Source: Marinobacter sp. (GTDB lineage Bacteria > Pseudomonadota > Gammaproteobacteria > Pseudomonadales > Oleiphilaceae). From it: a stretch of DNA of 36,273 nucleotides. Below the pieces are notes generated by a model that was given only the letters and a program-made list of their open reading frames with translations, did not search any database and was not told the origin of the DNA. Every line of letters begins with the position of its first letter. Position 1 is the stretch's first letter. The stretch is from positions 1 to 36,273 of the forward strand of contig JAKLLS010000024.1 of the NCBI GenBank assembly GCA_022014155.1, given 5' to 3'. Positions 9,172-33,761 of this stretch are shown here, piece by piece. The translations under genes were made by a program, and so were the position numbers.

Positions 9172-9627
9172 ATGGCGGAATCATCACTCAAGGAACAGTT
9201 GAACAACGCGGTAAAAAACGCGATGCGGAACAGGGATAAAACTCGTCTTGTTACCTTGCGTATGGCCCAGGCCGCGGTCAAGCAGATCGAGATTGATGAG
9301 CGCCGCGATCTGGAGGACGAGGATGTTCTGAAAGTGCTGGATAAAATGCTCAAGCAACGCCGCGATGCCGCCAGTCAATACGATGAGGCCGGTCGCGAGG
9401 AGTTGGGCGACAAGGAACGGGCGGAAATGGTGATTATCGAGGAATTCATGCCCGCCGCCCTGACCGAGGATGATCTGGACGGTTTGATTCGCATGTCCAT
9501 CAGCTCGACCGACGCCCAGGGAATGCAGGATATGGGGCGTGTTATGAACCACCTGCGCCCCCAGGTTCTTGGTCGGGTCGATATGGGGCATCTGAGCAAG
9601 AAGGTGCGGGCCGCGCTGGCGGGCTAA
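9172..9627 (+). CDS. GatB/YqeY domain-containing protein
   Basis: MAESSLKEQLNNAVKNAMRNRDKTRLVTLRMAQAAVKQIEIDERRDL...: YqeY family; good length (151 aa). Confidence 0.9.
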   Translation: MAESSLKEQLNNAVKNAMRNRDKTRLVTLRMAQAAVKQIEIDERRDLEDEDVLKVLDKMLKQRRDAASQYDEAGREELGDKERAEMVIIEEFMPAALTEDDLDGLIRMSISSTDAQGMQDMGRVMNHLRPQVLGRVDMGHLSKKVRAALAG

Positions 9628-23792: not shown

Positions 23793-23805
23793 TGATTGCC
23801 AATCA
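23793..23805. promoter_or_regulatory. palindrome in the hydrogenase operon leader
   Basis: TGATTG-C-CAATCA, preceded by a further TGATTG half-site at 23785-23790; just upstream of the GGAAGG Shine-Dalgarno. Confidence 0.35.
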
Positions 23806-23819
23806 TGGAAGGTCTCCTC

Positions 23820-24956
23820 ATGGACAACGTTGACGATAGCTCTGTTATCACGCGGGAAGGCTTGCAGTGTTTGCTGGATGCGTTGGCGGAGCGCGGGTAT
23901 ACGGTTGTTGGGCCGACCGTTCGAGACGAGGCCATCGTGTACGAAGAACTCGCCCGTATCGAAGCGCTTCCCGCGGGCTGGACGGATGAACAGGACGGCG
24001 GCCACTACCGACTGAAACGGCGTTCGGATGAGGCGTTGTTCGGATACGCCGTGGGGCCCCACAGTTGGAAACGTTTTCTTCACCCACCCAAAGTGTCCCT
24101 GTGGCAGGCGACCCGCCACGAAAACGAACTGCGCTTTGTTCCCGCCCGGGATGAACCGCCCCGATACGCTTTCATCGGGGTGCGAGCCTGCGAACTGGCG
24201 GCCATCGGAATTCAGGATCGCGTGCTGATGGGGGACGAGTACGCCGACCCCCATTACCGCTCACGCCGTGAGGAGGCCTTCCTGGTGGCGCTCAATTGCT
24301 CCGAGGCTGGCGGTACCTGCTTTTGCGATTCCATGGCGACCGGGCCTGACGTCAAAGAAGGCTACGACCTGGTCCTTACTGAATTGCTGGATGATGACAA
24401 CCACCTGTTTCTGATTCGGTCAGGCTCAGAGGAGGGGGCGGAAATTCTGGCCGAATTGCCCCGGGAGCCTGCGACAGAGACCCATCAGGCAGCGGCTACT
24501 GCCGTGGTGGAGAAAACCCGCAGCCAGATGGGCCGGAGCATGCCGCAAATCGCCATTCCTGCCTTGCTGATGGATAACCTGGAGCACCCGCGCTGGGATG
24601 AGGTTGCCGACCGGTGTCTGAGCTGCTCTAACTGCACTATGGTTTGTCCCACGTGCTTCTGCACCACTGTGGAAGATACCTCGGATCTGGAGGGGGTCAC
24701 TGCGGAGCGCAGCCGGCGCTGGGACTCCTGCTTTACGTCGGACTTTTCCTATATTCATGGCGGCAGTGTGCGCAATTCGACCCGGTCCCGCTATCGTCAG
24801 TGGATGACCCATAAACTGGCCACCTGGGTGGATCAGTTCGGTACTTCGGGTTGTGTCGGTTGCGGCCGCTGCATTACCTGGTGCCCGGTGGGTATCGATA
24901 TCACGGAGGAAGTTCGTGCCATTCACGATGATGTGTCATCGAGGGACAAGGAATGA
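23820..24956 (+). CDS. hydB: [NiFe] hydrogenase beta-type 4Fe-4S subunit (sulfhydrogenase beta/HydB-like)
   Basis: CLSCSNCTMVCPTCFCTTVED and GCVGCGRCITWCPVGIDITEE clusters; GVRACELAAIGIQDRVL; ATG at 23820 with GGAAGG Shine-Dalgarno (two upstream in-frame starts also possible). Confidence 0.85.
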   Translation: MDNVDDSSVITREGLQCLLDALAERGYTVVGPTVRDEAIVYEELARIEALPAGWTDEQDGGHYRLKRRSDEALFGYAVGPHSWKRFLHPPKVSLWQATRHENELRFVPARDEPPRYAFIGVRACELAAIGIQDRVLMGDEYADPHYRSRREEAFLVALNCSEAGGTCFCDSMATGPDVKEGYDLVLTELLDDDNHLFLIRSGSEEGAEILAELPREPATETHQAAATAVVEKTRSQMGRSMPQIAIPALLMDNLEHPRWDEVADRCLSCSNCTMVCPTCFCTTVEDTSDLEGVTAERSRRWDSCFTSDFSYIHGGSVRNSTRSRYRQWMTHKLATWVDQFGTSGCVGCGRCITWCPVGIDITEEVRAIHDDVSSRDKE

Positions 24957-25423
24957 AAAACATTGCCCAGATCGTCTGCGAGCATCCGTTCTTTCACGGT
25001 CTGGATGGGGAGTTCTGTGATCTGGTCTGCGGGTGTGCCCGCAATGTCCGGTTCAACCCGGGGGACTACCTGTTCCACGAAGGCGGAGACGCCGATTACC
25101 TGTATCTGATCCGCTATGGCCAGGTGACCCTGGAAATCGCGGTGCCGGGAAAACCGTCGGTTCGTTTTCAGACCCTCCATGACGGTGATCTGGTGGGGGT
25201 ATCCTGGGTTCTGCCCCCCTATCATTGGGCCTACGATGCCCGCGCCATTACGCTGACCCGTGCCATTGCCATGGATGCCCGCTGTCTGAGGAAGAAGTGT
25301 GATGATGACCCGGTTCTGGGCTACGACGTCCTGAAACGCGTGCTGCCGATTCTGACCAGTCGGTTGCACGCGACACAAATGCAGATTCTCGATGTTTATG
25401 GCGCTCCGGAGCAACCCGAGTGA
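24953..25423 (+). CDS. cyclic-nucleotide-binding-domain protein without HTH, Cys-rich N-terminus
   Basis: NVRFNPGDYLFHEGGDADYLYLIRYGQVTLEI: cNMP-binding beta-roll; 156 aa, no DNA-binding domain; overlaps the upstream gene by 4 bp. Confidence 0.8.
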   Translation: MKNIAQIVCEHPFFHGLDGEFCDLVCGCARNVRFNPGDYLFHEGGDADYLYLIRYGQVTLEIAVPGKPSVRFQTLHDGDLVGVSWVLPPYHWAYDARAITLTRAIAMDARCLRKKCDDDPVLGYDVLKRVLPILTSRLHATQMQILDVYGAPEQPE

Positions 25424-26250
25424 TGTCAGGCGACCTGATGATACCGGAGCCGGTTCGGGTTCTGCGCCGACAGCAGGAACTGGCGACTACCTGGACGTTG
25501 GAGCTGGAGTCGGGCCCGGCCGGCCACCGGCCATTTCTGCCGGGGCAGTTCAACATGCTTTATATATTTGGGGTGGGGGAGGTGCCCATCAGCCTGAGCG
25601 GTGACGCCGGACAGACAGAGACTCTGAGTCATACCGTACGGGCGGTGGGACCGGTCTCCAACAAGTTGGCGGCTTTGAAACCGATGGATACGGTTGGCCT
25701 GCGCGGTCCGTTTGGCGTCGGCTGGCCAATGACGGCAGGCGAGGGCGCGGATCTTTTGATTGTGGCTGGTGGACTGGGGCTGGCCCCGCTGCGACCGGCG
25801 ATTTATCACGTGTTGCGCCATCGGGAGAGGTACGGTCGGGTGATCCTGCTATACGGTACACGCAGCCCCGACGATATCCTCTATGCCGGGCAGCTGGAGG
25901 AATGGAGCAAACGTCCGGACGTTGAAGTTCATATTACGGTGGATCATGCCGGTGGTGACTGGCCGGGCAAGATTGGCGTGGTTCCTTCGTTGGTGCCAGC
26001 GCTGGATTTCGACCCTGAAGACGCCGTGGCCATGGTGTGCGGGCCGGAAATCATGATGCGTTTTACGGTCAATGCGTTGCGGGATGCCGGTGTTGAGGAC
26101 GAGTCCATTTACCTGTCCATGGAACGAAACATGAAATGCGCGCTCGGACATTGTGGTCATTGCCAGTTCGGATCGACGTTTGTCTGTAAGGACGGTCCGG
26201 TGCTGTCGTTTGACCGGGTCCGCGGATTACTGAGCCTCAAGGAGTTCTGA
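25423..26250 (+). CDS. hydG: [NiFe] hydrogenase gamma-type FAD/NAD(P)-binding 2Fe-2S subunit (HydG-like)
   Basis: [48 protein letters not shown], and [22 protein letters not shown] 2Fe-2S motif. Confidence 0.88.
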
Positions 26251-26251
26251 T

Positions 26252-27034
26252 ATGGCGCGCTCGGATCACAAACCACGCCTCGGGGTCTGGAAGTTTGCTT
26301 CGTGCGATGGCTGCCAGCTGACTTTGCTGGATTGTGAGGATGAACTGTTGCAGGTCGCCGGGGCCGTCGATATTGCCTATTTCCCGGAAGCCACCCGTGG
26401 CAGTGTCCGTGGCACGTACGATCTGTCCCTGGTGGAAGGTTCCATCACCACGCTCCACGATGCCGAGCGTATACAGGATGTGCGCCGGCGCTCGCGAACG
26501 CTGGTGACCATCGGGGCCTGTGCCACTGCCGGCGGCATTCAGGCGTTGCGTAATTTCGCCGATATTGATGATTTCATAGCGGCTGTCTATGCGCACCCCG
26601 AGTATATTGAGACATTGTCCACCTCCACACCCATCGCCGACCATGTGCCGGTGGATTTTGAATTGCGTGGCTGCCCCATCAGCAAACAGCAGTTACTGGA
26701 GGTGGTGTCGGCGTACCTGTGCGGACGGCGACCGGTCACGCCGGCCCATAGCGTCTGCCTGGATTGCAAGCTCAGGGGCAACGTCTGCGTCATGGTCGCT
26801 CATGGAACACCCTGCCTGGGGCCGATGACCCACAGCGGCTGCAACGCTCTGTGTCCGTCCTATAATCGGGGGTGCTACGGTTGTTATGGGCCCAAGGAAA
26901 ATCCCAACGCGCCGGCGCTGAGTGAACGCCTGGATCAGCTGGGCATGGGCCGGGCGGAGCGGTTGCGTTTCTACCGGACGTTCAACGCCTGGGCCGGGCC
27001 GTTCCGTGAGGAGAGCGAACGTCATGAGCCGTAA
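26252..27034 (+). CDS. hydD: [NiFe] hydrogenase small (delta) subunit
   Basis: [57 protein letters not shown]...[27 protein letters not shown]. Confidence 0.92.
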
Positions 27035-28313
27035 GACGATCAAAGTGGATTACCTGGCGCGCGTCGAGGGCGAGGGCGCCTTGAATGTGACCATCCGGGA
27101 CGGCCAGGTCAGCAAGGCGGAGTTGCGTATTTTTGAGCCGCCGCGCTTTTTCGAGGCGTTCCTGCGTGGGCGCGACTATGCGGAGGCGCCCGATGTGACT
27201 GCCCGCATCTGTGGTATCTGTCCGGTGGCTTACCAGATGAGCGCTGTTCATGCGATGGAGAACGCGCTCGACATTGAGGTGGAAGGCCAACTGCGGGCAT
27301 TGCGGCGATTGTTGTACTGTGGCGAATGGATTGAAAGCCACGCCCTGCACATATACATGCTGCATGCCCCCGACTTCCTGGGGTACGCCGGGGCGGTGGA
27401 TATGGCCAGGGATTATCCCGACATCGTCAAACGGGGACTGTCCCTGAAAAAAGCGGGTAATGCCATCATGACCCTGTTGGGCGGTCGGGAAATTCATCCC
27501 ATCAATGTGCGGGTGGGGGGATTTTACCGAACGCCGACCCGCAAGGAGCTGGAACCGCTGGCTGAAACCCTGAAGCAGGCCCGTGAGGATGCGCTGGCAA
27601 CTGTGCGCTGGACTGCTGGGCTGGACATGCCGGAAGCCGAGCGGGACTACCATCTGGTTGCACTGCACCATCCGGACGAGTACGCCATGAATACCGGGCG
27701 TATTATTTCCAATCGAGGTTTGGATATTGCTGTAGCGGACTACAACCGTCACTTTGTGGAGTCCCACGTGCAACGCTCCACGGCTCTGCATTCGCACCTG
27801 CGCGAACACGATTGCTATCTGGTCGGGCCCCTGGCGCGCTACAGCCTTAATCACGGTCAGCTCTCATCCCTGGCCCGGGAGGCGGCCAAAGAAGCCGGTC
27901 TCGGTGTTACCTGCACCAATCCGTTCCAGAGCATTGTGGTGCGCAGCGTCGAGGTTGTGTATGCCTGCGATGAGGCCCTCCGCATCATCGACGAATACCA
28001 GGAACCGGAACGGCCGTTCGAGCTGGCCGAGCCGAAGGCCTCGGAGGGTTTCGGGTGCACTGAGGCCCCGCGGGGGCTGCTGTTTCACCGTTACCGGCTG
28101 GACGAAAATGGCGGCATTCTTGAGGCGCAGATTGTGCCGCCCACGGCACAGAACCAGCCGAGCATCGAAGCCGACCTGAAAGACCTGGTGGGTGGCTGGC
28201 TCGATTTGCCGGCCGATACCCTCCGCGAACGGTGTGAGCAGACCATTCGCAACTACGACCCCTGCATCTCCTGTGCAACGCATTTTCTCAAGCTGGATGT
28301 CCGCCATGAGTGA
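27024..28313 (+). CDS. hydA: [NiFe] hydrogenase large (alpha) catalytic subunit
   Basis: L1 motif [25 protein letters not shown]2 motif DPCISCATH followed by the short tail FLKLDVRHE; starts [20 protein letters not shown]. Confidence 0.95.
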
Positions 28314-28785
28314 TGTCTCCGGTCCCATCAGGGTAATCGGTATCGGCAACCGGGACCGGGGGGACGATGCTCTCGGACCGCTGGTGGTAGACGCCCTTCG
28401 TGATCGATTGCCGGCAACCGTCAGCGCGGTCGAGCACAGTGGAGAAGTGGCCGGGCTCGTGGACCTGATCAGCGACGCCGACGCGGTGTACCTGGTGGAC
28501 GCCGCCGTTATGGGGCTTGAGCCGGGCAGCTTGCGGGAGTTCGATGCCAGCACTTCGCCGTTGCCAGCCTTGGGGGGCGCGTTTTCGTCCCATGCGCTGG
28601 GGCTGTCGGAAGCGATTGAGTTGGCCCGCGCACTTGATGCGCTGCCTTCGGTATGCCGGGTGTTTGCAGTGGAGGCGACCAGTTTCGAAGCTGGTGAAGG
28701 GCTGTCACAACCGGTGGCGGACACCTTGCCTCGGGTGACTCAGGCAGTGATTGATAGCATCAGGCAGGAGAGTGGTCATGCATGA
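28306..28785 (+). CDS. hydrogenase maturation protease
   Basis: [48 protein letters not shown]: HycI/HoxW-type endopeptidase motifs. Confidence 0.92.
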
Positions 28786-29059
28786 AACGGCGCTGGTCAA
28801 AAATCTGATTCACCGGGTCGAGACGCTGTGTGCGGACGAGAAAGCCGAACGGGTGGTGGAAGTGGCGGTATGGCTGGGCGCGCTGTGCCATATGTCCCCG
28901 GAGCATTTCACCGATCACTTCCGTCAGGAGGCTGCCGGAACCTGCGCGGAGCAGGCCCACCTCAGGATTGAAACGTCTGACGACATTAACCATCCCCAGG
29001 CCCAGGATGTCCTGTTGCAGAGTCTGGAACTGGAGACGGAGGATGAGGCCGGCCCATGA
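28778..29059 (+). CDS. hypA: HypA-like hydrogenase maturation protein lacking the zinc-ribbon segment
   Basis: [65 protein letters not shown] is HypA-like (MHE nickel-site N-terminus), but no CxxC...CxxC pair follows. Confidence 0.8.
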   Translation: MHETALVKNLIHRVETLCADEKAERVVEVAVWLGALCHMSPEHFTDHFRQEAAGTCAEQAHLRIETSDDINHPQAQDVLLQSLELETEDEAGP

Positions 29060-31401
29060 CTGACGGTTGCCGGGTCGAAGCAGCGCCAGTCCGTTGGCGT
29101 GTCCGTGTTCATGGCCTGGTACAGGGTGTGGGGTTTCGGCCGTTTGTCTATCGACTGGCGACCGGACTGGGGCTGTCCGGGTGGGTTAGTAACACCCCTG
29201 AGGGCGTGGTTATAGAGGCTGAGGGACACCTGGAGGCGCTGCAGAATCTGGTGTCCGGGTTGAAACAGCAGGCCCCGGTAAATGCTCGCGTGGAGGCCGT
29301 TTGCGCGGAACCGATAGCCCGGTCCACGGGATTGGGAGCGGATAGAGAGTTCCTCGTGCGCGAGAGTCAGGAGCAGGGCGCTGCTGCCACACGGTTACCT
29401 GCGGATCTCGCTCCCTGTCGTCAGTGCATCGAGGAACTGCATGATCCCGGCAATCGGCGTTACCGATATCCCTTTATCAATTGCACGGATTGCGGGCCCC
29501 GGTACAGCCTGATCGAGGGGTTGCCTTATGACCGTGCCCGCACGGCGATGAGGCATTTTCAAATGTGCCCCCATTGTCTGGCGGAGTACCACGATCCGGC
29601 AAGCCGGCGCTTTCATGCCGAGCCCAATGCCTGCCCGGACTGCGGTCCCCGTGTCGCCTATTGCCAGCCTGATGGCACGGTGCTGGCGAAAGACGAGGCA
29701 GCCGTGTCCGAAGCGGCCAGTCGTCTGGCGGCCGGTGACATCATCGCGCTCAAGGGGTTGGGCGGGTTTCAGCTGTTGGCCGATGCCCGCAGCGCTCGCG
29801 CGGTGCAGACCCTGCGCGAACGAAAGCACCGGCCACGAAAGCCCCTGGCGGTGATGTTCGATTCGCTGGCGTCGTTGCAGCGGGTATGCCCGGTCTCTGC
29901 CTCGGAAAGTCAGCTGCTCACCGGTCCGGAGCGTCCCATAGTGTTGCTTCATGCGCCTGATCACGATCTGGCCGTCAACCTGGCGCCAGGCAGGGCGGAT
30001 CTCGGTGTGATGCTGCCCTGCACGCCTTTACATGAGCTACTGCTCGGCGATCAGGGATTTCCCGTGGTCGCCACCAGTGGCAACCTGAGTGGCGAACCGA
30101 TTGCCATCGATAACCAGGAAGCCTATGCCCGCCTGGGCGGGATTGCCGATGGATTTCTGGTACACGACCGTCCGATTGTGCGACCACTGGATGATTCCGT
30201 GACCCGCGTGGTGGCAGGGCGGCCCCAGTTACTCCGGCGGGCCCGCGGCTATTCGCCGAATCTTACACTGCCCCGGTCTGTACCAGCCGGGTGGGCGGCG
30301 ACCGGAGGCCACCTGAAAACCACCGTGGCCCTGAGCACCGACTCCGGGGTGGTACTGAGCCAGCATCTGGGTGATATGGACAGTGTCCTGGGGCGTGAAG
30401 GTTTTGTCCGCACGGTGGATGAGCTACAGAGGCTGTTTACGACTGTGCCGCAGCGCTGGGTTCACGATGGCCATCCGGACTACTTCACAACGCGCTACGC
30501 ACAGGCCCGTAGTGATGCTCCGTGTGCGGTCCAGCACCATGTTGCGCACATTGCGGCGGTGTTGGCCGAGCACGGGATCAGTGAGCCGGTGCTTGGGGTA
30601 GCGTGGGACGGCAGTGGCTTTGGTGACGATAACACCCTGTGGGGCGGGGAGTTCCTGCGCCTGGACTCACAGGGATACGAGCGCGTCGCCCATCTGCGGC
30701 GGTTCCGCCTGCCAGGTGGCGAGGCGGCCATGGGAGAACCCCGGCGTTCGGCCCTGGGGCTGTTATACGCGTTACTGGGTGATCAGGTCATGGAGTGCGA
30801 GACTCTGGCCCCGCTACGCAGTTTTACCCGGGCCGAAAGGAAGCTCTTGATCCAGTCGCTCGGAGCTGGCCTGAACGCGCCGGAAACCTCAAGTGTGGGG
30901 CGACTGTTTGACGCGGTGGCGGCCTTGGCTGGCGTCTGCCAGCAGGCGAGTTACGAGGGGCAGGCGGCGGGCGAGTTGGAGGCGGCCTGTGGTCGCGATA
31001 ACAGGGCATCGCCCTATCCATTCGAACTGTCGGCACCGGAGGCAGACCGCCCCTGGGAGATAGATTGGGCGCCAGCGGTATACGCCCTGTTGGAAGACGT
31101 CCGGCTTGGCCAGCCTGTGTCCGGGATATCTGGCGCCTTTCACCAGGGGCTGGTCAACGTCATTGTGGCGGTGGCCAGACAGGCTAAACTGTCGAGAGTT
31201 GTGCTGGCTGGCGGGTGCTTCCAGAATGCCTGCCTGCTTGAATCGACCATAACAGCTCTTGAGAGCGCCGGATTTCAGGTGTTCTGGCCGTGCCGGATAC
31301 CGCCCAACGATGGCGGCCTGGCGCTGGGTCAGTTGGCCTGGGCAACCGGAGTTCTTCAGGGCAGGGAGGGGGCATGTGTCTGGCCGTACCGGGACGCCTG
31401 A
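29056..31401 (+). CDS. hypF: carbamoyltransferase HypF
   Basis: Acylphosphatase domain (VRVHGLVQGVGFRPFVYRLA), two zinc-finger repeats (CRQC...CTDCGPRYS; CPHC...CPDCGPRV), YrdC-like and Kae1-like domains (LAGGCFQNACLLE). Confidence 0.95.
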   Translation: MTDGCRVEAAPVRWRVRVHGLVQGVGFRPFVYRLATGLGLSGWVSNTPEGVVIEAEGHLEALQNLVSGLKQQAPVNARVEAVCAEPIARSTGLGADREFLVRESQEQGAAATRLPADLAPCRQCIEELHDPGNRRYRYPFINCTDCGPRYSLIEGLPYDRARTAMRHFQMCPHCLAEYHDPASRRFHAEPNACPDCGPRVAYCQPDGTVLAKDEAAVSEAASRLAAGDIIALKGLGGFQLLADARSARAVQTLRERKHRPRKPLAVMFDSLASLQRVCPVSASESQLLTGPERPIVLLHAPDHDLAVNLAPGRADLGVMLPCTPLHELLLGDQGFPVVATSGNLSGEPIAIDNQEAYARLGGIADGFLVHDRPIVRPLDDSVTRVVAGRPQLLRRARGYSPNLTLPRSVPAGWAATGGHLKTTVALSTDSGVVLSQHLGDMDSVLGREGFVRTVDELQRLFTTVPQRWVHDGHPDYFTTRYAQARSDAPCAVQHHVAHIAAVLAEHGISEPVLGVAWDGSGFGDDNTLWGGEFLRLDSQGYERVAHLRRFRLPGGEAAMGEPRRSALGLLYALLGDQVMECETLAPLRSFTRAERKLLIQSLGAGLNAPETSSVGRLFDAVAALAGVCQQASYEGQAAGELEAACGRDNRASPYPFELSAPEADRPWEIDWAPAVYALLEDVRLGQPVSGISGAFHQGLVNVIVAVARQAKLSRVVLAGGCFQNACLLESTITALESAGFQVFWPCRIPPNDGGLALGQLAWATGVLQGREGACVWPYRDA

Positions 31402-31619
31402 TCAGTATTGACGGCGACGATCCGCTTACCCGTCAGGGACGCGTCGATTTTGGCGGTGTTATCAAGTCAGTCAATCTGGCCTACGTGCCGGAGGTGCAAG
31501 AGCAGGACTATGTGCTGGTGCATGTGGGATTTGCCATTACCGTCGTCGACTCGCTTGAGGCCGAGCGTGTTTTCGAGTACCTCCGTACCCTGGAACAGGA
31601 GGCGGACGAGCCGCAATGA
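31374..31619 (+). CDS. hypC: HypC/HybG/HupF family chaperone
   Basis: [13 protein letters not shown]-terminal signature; [10 protein letters not shown]. Confidence 0.95.
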
Positions 31620-32722
31620 AATATCGGGACGAATATCGCACCCCTGAGGCTGCCCGTGGCTATGCGGACGCCATCGCCCGCATCACCACAAGGCCCTGGA
31701 CCCTCATGGAAGTCTGTGGGGGACAGACCCACGCCATCGTGCGTTTCGGGATCGACCAACTGCTGCCGGAGACGATTTCCCTGATCCATGGCCCCGGGTG
31801 TCCGGTGTGTGTGACCCCCATCGCCTACATTGACAAGGCTCTCGAAATTGCCGGGCTCCCCGGGGTTATCCTCTGCACCTTTGGCGATATGCTTCGGGTG
31901 CCGGGTACGCATTCGGACCTGTCCGCTGCCCGGGCTCGGGGGGCGGATATCCGGGTGGTGTATTCGCCGCTTGAAGCGCTGACGGTGGCCAGAGAGAACC
32001 CTGGCCATGAAGTCGTTTTCTTTGCGGTCGGGTTTGAAACCACCGCCCCGGCCAATGCGATGGCGGTGTATCAGGCCGAGCGGGCAGGGCTCGAGAATTT
32101 CTCGGTGCTGGTCTCCCAGGTGCTGGTGCCACCGGCGATTCGCGCCCTGCTGGAACGCCCGGGCAATCAGGTCCAGGGATTTCTGGCCGCCGGCCACGTC
32201 TGCACCATAACCGGGTATGAAGCGTATGAGCCCATTGCCCGTGAACACGGTGTTCCCATTGTGGTGACAGGCTTTGAACCGCTGGACATTCTGGAGGGGG
32301 TTTACCGCTGCGTCCGTCAGTTGGAGAAGGGCGAAAGTTGGGTTGAAAACCAGTACAGCCGGGCTGTCCGCCGCCCGGGTAATGCCATGGCCCAGCATGT
32401 GATGCAGGCGGTCTTCCAGGTGGTGCCCAGGCAATGGCGGGGCATGGGAGGTATTCCGGACAGTGGGCTGGGTGTGTCACCGGCCTACAGATCCTTCGAT
32501 GCAGAAGCCCGTTTCGGCACCGTGAACGGCGAGGATGAGATCCAGGGAGAATGCCTCAGTGGGGCCGTGTTGCGAGGCGAAATCCGCCCTGACCAATGCC
32601 CCGCCTTCGGCACCCGCTGTACTCCGGAGCGTCCACTGGGAGTGACGATGGTGTCCGAGGAGGGTGCCTGTGCCGCCTATTACCGTTATCGCCGACCCGC
32701 CGGAGGTAAAGCCTGTGAGTGA
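31616..32722 (+). CDS. hypD: hydrogenase formation protein HypD
   Basis: [74 protein letters not shown]. Confidence 0.95.
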
Positions 32723-33761
32723 CAGCTGCGACAATCATTGTCCACCGCTGAATGATGATCACGATGTGGTGAAAATGGCCCACGGCGGTGGCGGTCGGGC
32801 GATGGCGCAGTTGCTTGACGATATCTTCCGCCCGGCATTTGATAACCCCTGGCTGGCACAGCAACACGACGGCGCAGTGGTGGATATGCCCGGGACCATG
32901 GCGTTCACGACGGATTCTTACGTGGTGCGACCGCTGTTCTTTCCGGGCTCTGACATTGGAACCATGGCGGTGCATGGCACAGTCAATGACCTCGCCATGT
33001 GCGGAGCCAGGCCGCAATACCTGAGCGCCGGTTTTATTCTCGAAGAGGGGCTGCCGCTGGCCACGTTGCGCCGGGTAGTGGATGCCATGGCTGCCGCAGC
33101 CGTCGACGCTGGCGTGCAGATAGTGACCGGCGATTTGAAGGTAGTGGAGCGCGGCAAGGCAGATGGCGTGTACATCAACACCGCCGGGGTCGGGAAAGTG
33201 ATGGCCCCCAAACCTGTGGAACCCTCCCGGGTGCAGGCCGGTGACCGGATTCTGCTCAGTGGCGATCTTGGGCGGCACGGCGTCGCGGTAATGACCGCAC
33301 GGGAGAAACTGGAGTTGGAATCAGCAATTGAGAGCGATTGCGCGTCAGTCGTGCAGCCGGTCCTGGCATTGCTGGAAGAGCGGGTAGACGTTCGCTGCCT
33401 CCGTGACCTTACTCGCGGAGGTCTCGCCAGTGCGCTGGTGGAAATATCGGAAAGTGCCGGTCTGGCAGCCGAGGTCAGGGAGGTGGACATTCCGGTGCGC
33501 GAGGACGTATCGGCGTTCTGCGAGCTGCTGGGGCTGGACCCCCTGCATGTGGCCAACGAGGGCCGCTTTATCGCCATCGTGGCCGAGCAGGATGTGACTC
33601 GGGCGACTGACATTCTCAGGCGGTATCCAGTGAGCCAGGGGACCGTTGATATCGGCCATTTTGTGCAAGGAACCGCCGGATTGGTAACGGCATCCAGCAT
33701 GATTGGTGCCAGCCGGATGATCGACCGACTTTCCGGAGAGCAACTGCCCCGTATTTGTTAG
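32715..33761 (+). CDS. hypE: hydrogenase expression/formation protein HypE
   Basis: [17 protein letters not shown]-terminal PRIC tail ([10 protein letters not shown]) expected for the carbamoyl/cyano-carrying Cys; GTG start at 32715 overlapping hypD. Confidence 0.95.

Follow-up and report, generated by a model that had tools for sequence, protein, structure and literature searches.

The gene at positions 28,778 to 29,059 (forward strand) of the window, by which we mean the whole stretch of 36,273 nucleotides analyzed here, encodes a HypA-like protein of 93 residues that is missing the entire two-CxxC zinc segment. Comparison of this protein with its relatives suggests, with a probability that we put at slightly below 0.6, that the short HypA works as the nickel metallochaperone in a group 3b-type [NiFe] hydrogenase cassette that is self-contained. 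Such a cassette would do without zinc ribbon and HypB alike, and its HypA would use His47 and His43, often together with His38, as ligands. Nickel binding by the short HypA, the ligand roles of the histidines, and nickel delivery are what we infer from these comparisons. The absence of hypB from such operons was noted in 2020, with Marinobacter lipolyticus and Marinobacter santoriniensis included (PMC7285500); relative to the excerpts of that paper considered here, the missing zinc domain and the gained histidines are new.

A HypA-like protein without the zinc segment

The product begins with MHETALVKN and ends with LELETEDEAGP, and it contains the nickel motif M1-H2-E3 along with H38, H43, H47, and D69; the CxxC pairs are absent. 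The Pfam HypA profile PF01155 matched the protein with 42.1 bits (cut-off, 28.9; E value, 1e-10), with residues 1 to 67 aligned on positions 1 to 67 of the 112 in the profile, and the match ends where the zinc segment would start. This profile was also matched by 19 of 19 members of the short HypA family at an E value of 0.01. The score with the NCBI equivalog model TIGR00100 was 32.1 bits, which is under its cut-off of 88.1. When the sequences were aligned with 36 zinc-bearing HypAs, the gap started just upstream of the first CxxC and closed just past the second, and the two-CxxC segment was missing from every aligned short HypA. The final beta strand is retained (DVLLQSLELE in the window HypA versus EMRIKELEVE in zinc-bearing HypA). 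AlphaFold2 predicted a confident fold (mean pLDDT, 88) with the layout helix 3-20, strand, helix 41-52, and two strands, and a Foldseek search of the PDB with this model returned HypA structures as the top matches (E value, 1.6e-5). These results bear out the sequence-only reading made earlier from this DNA, which had aligned the protein with HypA from the N-terminal MHE onward, had described the zinc loop as replaced while the final strand was kept, and had proposed structure prediction as a check. A sequencing error hiding a zinc ribbon in another frame, named there as a possible refutation, is ruled out. The hypA ATG lies within the last bases of the protease gene, and the hypA stop codon overlaps the hypF start (ATGA). 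This leaves no room for an out-of-frame zinc ribbon, and orthologues are equally long.

A group 3b-type operon in genomes without HypB

The gene lies in a cassette with the order hydB, cyclic-nucleotide (cNMP)-binding gene, hydG, hydD, hydA, protease, hypA, hypF, hypC, hypD, hypE, all on the forward strand. hydB (23,796 to 24,956) encodes the iron-sulfur (beta) subunit of a sulfhydrogenase-type [NiFe] hydrogenase (NF040833, 160 bits, under the cut-off of that model) and is conserved in the loci described below. Downstream are the gene for a cyclic-nucleotide-binding-domain protein (24,953 to 25,423; PF00027), a constant cassette member, hydG for the FAD/NAD(P)-binding (gamma) subunit (25,420 to 26,250; profile matches), hydD for the small (delta) subunit (26,252 to 27,034; PF01058 and NF040831), and hydA for the catalytic large subunit (27,024 to 28,313). 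A maturation protease gene of the HycI/HyaD type (28,297 to 28,785; PF01750 and TIGR00072) precedes hypA, which is followed by hypF (29,056 to 31,401; TIGR00143, 758 bits), hypC (31,374 to 31,619; TIGR00074), hypD (31,616 to 32,722; TIGR00075, 479 bits), and hypE (32,664 to 33,761; TIGR02124, 417 bits). We class the operon as group 3b-type on its four subunits, which are homologues of HydB, HydG, HydD, and HydA; sulfhydrogenase subunit models are the best matches of HydA, HydB, and HydD and HydG matches strongly, with all scores below the strict cut-offs of the models. HydA (P0003) carries N- and C-terminal CxxC motifs (RICGIC and DPCISCATH) and a C-terminal extension, FLKLDVRHE, predicted to be cleaved, as in group 3b [NiFe] hydrogenase.

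hypB was not found within the window, as the earlier reading had stated for the operon, and neither HypB nor a second HypA was found in the window's own assembly (82% complete). The pattern is the same in other genomes with a short HypA. HypB above the curated cut-off was found in none of the 35 genomes recovered by the pattern scan described below, near relatives included, and in none of four further genomes recovered by profile. A second HypA was found in none of the 35, apart from a fragmentary 20.7-bit match in one genome (G316), which disposes of the earlier proviso that a full-length hypA elsewhere might do the job. Candidate HypB matches in the 35 genomes proved to be UreG (70 to 78 bits; 7 genomes) or MeaB (29 bits), and the cNMP-binding protein was ruled out as a stand-in for HypB, as one genome (G344) has it beside HypB. 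Of the Pseudomonadota genomes that encode a zinc-bearing HypA, 97 were tested, and HypB was present in 95, the two exceptions being a genome whose HypA has an internal stop (G595) and one that is 73% complete (G541). In the Myxococcota sample, HypB was present in 28 of the 33 remaining genomes, and CxxC pairs were present in the part of these 33 HypAs that was inspected.

Distribution and maintenance of the short HypA

When 84,980 species genomes were scanned with a DNA pattern requiring GAL[CA]H[IM]S, 35 short-HypA loci were recovered from Pseudomonadota, Nitrospinota, Planctomycetota, Zixibacteria, Binatota, Myxococcota, or allied groups. Those nearest to the window cassette are from M. lipolyticus and an uncultured Marinobacter, in keeping with a Marinobacter host for the window, and both M. 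lipolyticus and M. santoriniensis, named in PMC7285500, are among the loci. The short HypAs are 86 to 95 residues long, except for one partial match (L039). The loci hold the genes of the window cassette, genes lost at contig ends set aside, and nearly all hold them in the window order; the hyp genes are rearranged in two (L020 and L041), and the hyd order is different in a third (L038). In-frame stops flagged in some matches were only the terminal stop, and one further short HypA (G354) owes its shortness to a contig end. Profile searches free of the pattern revealed additional members in Myxococcota and Planctomycetota.

Comparison of the window hypA with five Marinobacter orthologues gave dN/dS values of 0.09 to 0.12 (Nei-Gojobori). 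As judged from these low ratios of about 0.1 and from the occurrence of the same short HypA and cassette at 35 loci of several phyla, the short hypA is under purifying selection and is maintained, and is thus no relic. The possibility, raised earlier, that zinc-less forms are isolated degenerate genes therefore does not hold.

The cassette is also found on four Burkholderiales plasmids (L202 to L205), three of which are typed as conjugative; that of Burkholderia savannae is conjugative and carries the full cassette. Where the plasmid copies of the short hypA are annotated, they bear the plain name HypA. The cassette on the Paraburkholderia phytofirmans plasmid (L202) looks decayed, with MRE replacing MHE and no hypF annotated downstream, and that on the Pandoraea faecigallinarum plasmid is interrupted by IS elements.

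Gained histidines and position 47

The short family differs from zinc-bearing HypAs in residues that the earlier reading had missed. His43 replaces the canonical Ala, His47 replaces the canonical Ser, Ala, or Cys, and His38 is usually present; at position 40 the acidic residue is lost, with Ser in the short family and Glu in canonical HypA. The scan pattern itself forced H38 and S40, and their invariance in the 35 loci carries no weight. In 25 members collected without the pattern, H47 was present in 25, H43 in 24, S40 in 22, and H38 in 18. The M-H-E motif is retained in 35 of 35 aligned members, and H2 is retained in 24 of the 25 pattern-free members.

Position 47 was His or Asp in all 48 HypAs from HypB-less genomes, three zinc-bearing proteins included, and in none of 52 from HypB-positive genomes, after removal of two duplicate genomes and of G541. 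A Fisher test of this residue against HypB status gave 1e-29, a figure that overstates the contrast since the sequences are related; part of the contrast reflects common ancestry. His or Asp at position 47, as read from these alignments, tracks HypB loss over several HydA clades.

Zinc loss with HypB kept, and HypB loss with zinc kept

A second type of short HypA, in which GALAGGS or GAMASSD replaces GALxHIS, was found in six Myxococcota genomes (L154, L155, L156, L163, L164, and L165) with a similar 3b-type cassette and with HypB absent. In these six proteins position 47 is Asp or His, H43 is missing from one, and H38 is missing from all; the putative nickel site would accordingly vary. Zinc-less HypAs of 79 to 89 residues with canonical-looking N-terminal domains directly adjoin HypB in four other genomes (G666, G765, G823, and G700; loci L080, from base 9483, L157, L158, and L166); in these the zinc ribbon was lost independently while HypB was kept. 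Conversely, three genomes (G766, G797, and G768) have the same hydrogenase cassette with a zinc-bearing HypA and with HypB absent; their loci (L167, L168, and L169) otherwise share the layout, and this HypA carries an altered loop, SETEHLHAES, and His47. Because three HypB-less cassettes keep zinc and four zinc-less HypAs adjoin HypB, loss of zinc does not in itself go hand in hand with loss of HypB. The two losses are separable, and their association holds for the short-HypA family without being a general rule. The link between zinc-less forms and HypB absence expected by the earlier reading thus stands within the family and fails for the exceptions just listed.

The same reading had proposed a simplified nickel route specific to this type of hydrogenase. 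A minimal HypA does occur in a hypB-less group 3b-type operon, as a conserved family, but it is not specific to the type. Other 3b-type operons, among them one from a second Marinobacter genome (G019), come with a zinc-bearing HypA and HypB. A further genome (G497; L114) has the series hydB-cNMP-hydG-hydD-hydA-protease without local hyp genes, encodes a HydA 70% identical to that of the window, and carries canonical HypA and HypB genes about 1 Mb from its hydrogenase genes. In a HydA tree whose bootstrap fell short of full convergence, the window family formed one clade (99/99) with G766, G797, G768, G344, and G497, and the other two short-HypA types fell in separate clades. G344, inside the clade of the window family, has a zinc-bearing HypA and HypB. 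These placements indicate several separate losses of the zinc ribbon. A HydA of the window type can apparently also be served by a canonical pair of HypA and HypB.

A proposed route of nickel loading without the zinc ribbon and HypB

In HypA/HybF proteins (PF01155; Helicobacter pylori 2KDX and 6G81; Thermococcus kodakarensis 3A43), the M-H-E motif, the alpha-beta-alpha-beta-beta fold, the final strand, and the setting among hyp genes are the same as in the short HypA, and HypA structures are its best Foldseek matches. The short HypA is unlike them in that the CxxC pairs and the zinc segment are absent, in that Ser stands in place of E40, in the histidines at 43 and 47 (often 38), and in a genome without HypB. 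The H. pylori protein binds nickel with micromolar affinity through Met1, His2, and probably Glu3 and Asp40, and mutation of most of its zinc-site cysteines lowers hydrogenase activity to or near the level of a hypA knock-out. In the HypA-HypB system of T. kodakarensis (HypAB complex, 5AUN), a nickel chaperone likewise serves a [NiFe] hydrogenase of the cytosol, HyhL. There, ATP-loaded HypB moves HypA His98 onto the M-H-E site, which results in nanomolar nickel affinity. His98 sits between the two CxxC pairs, which is the segment missing in the short HypA, hence no equivalent of His98 is present; unlike in T. kodakarensis, both HypB and the His98-bearing segment are missing from the window system.

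We propose that the Fe(CN)2CO group would be assembled by HypF, HypC, HypD, and HypE, as usual, and that nickel would be captured at the N-terminal M-H-E site of the short HypA. The missing ligands could be supplied within the domain by His47 and His43 (often His38), on the predicted loop and helix near the N-terminus, where His43 and His47 would be one helix turn apart and beside the loop that bears Asp40 in H. pylori. Such in-domain ligands may allow nickel capture without the NTP-driven partner HypB. The short HypA would then dock on the HydA precursor and pass nickel on, and after nickel insertion the cassette protease would trim the C-terminal extension of HydA. A more specific form of this proposal, which we hold only tentatively and at somewhat under even odds, is a one-protein nickel-loading route in which the built-in site of His43, His47, often His38, and M-H-E would alone give high affinity and replace nucleotide-driven HypA-HypB in a mobile cassette, with a similar change at position 47 in more than one HypB-less lineage.

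Could a host NTPase, such as UreG, a COG0523/CobW protein, or a Mrp-type ATPase, replace HypB while the short HypA still acts as the nickel chaperone? UreG has been proposed as a HypB replacement for Nitrosococcus oceani AFC132 (PMC7285500), UreG was found in 7 of the 35 short-HypA genomes, and HypB-type ATPases are known in archaea. The cassette described in that paper for N. oceani AFC132, Nitrospina gracilis, and M. lipolyticus has the same genes and the hyp order hypAFCDE, with hypB absent; the excerpts considered here treat the missing hypB and the UreG proposal and do not mention loss of the zinc domain or new histidines. The paper also describes Rhodothermus marinus as carrying this cassette along with a hypB located far from it. 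We found no report of either in the open-access literature. However, no NTPase is constant in the cassette, the B. savannae plasmid cassette is complete without one, and 28 of the 35 genomes and the window assembly have no UreG-level match. As these 28 genomes are without UreG, UreG is unlikely to be a general substitute for HypB, and an NTPase replacement of any kind also seems unlikely.

HypB is generally held to be required at low nickel. High nickel rescues hypB mutants of other bacteria, and E. coli HypA is able to bind its large subunit without HypB. The short HypA could then be a docking factor that keeps HydA open, with nickel taken from the cytosolic pool, no dedicated donor being involved, and with the new histidines serving the HydA interface or the stability of the fold. 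We regard this as quite unlikely, given that M-H-E is retained as would be expected of metal binding and that His/Asp47 tracks HypB loss over several HydA clades. A reading of the gene as a HypA in decay, with maturation left to other factors, is highly improbable and already contradicted, for although the P. phytofirmans plasmid copy has lost the M-H-E histidine and the downstream hyp genes, the gene otherwise shows low dN/dS, invariant residues, and intact reading frames over several phyla, and the 35 genomes encode no further HypA.

A family that does without the zinc ribbon and HypB and yet keeps the final strand and the nickel motif provides a natural test of the roles of the zinc ribbon and the NTPase. 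Position 47 is a one-residue predictor, testable by mutation, and the cassette would offer a compact, HypB-free set of maturation genes in one operon for the production of active [NiFe] hydrogenase in other hosts. In nearly all of the cassettes, the cNMP-binding-domain gene occupies the place after hydB and before hydG, and its product may be a regulatory or structural subunit that has yet to be studied.
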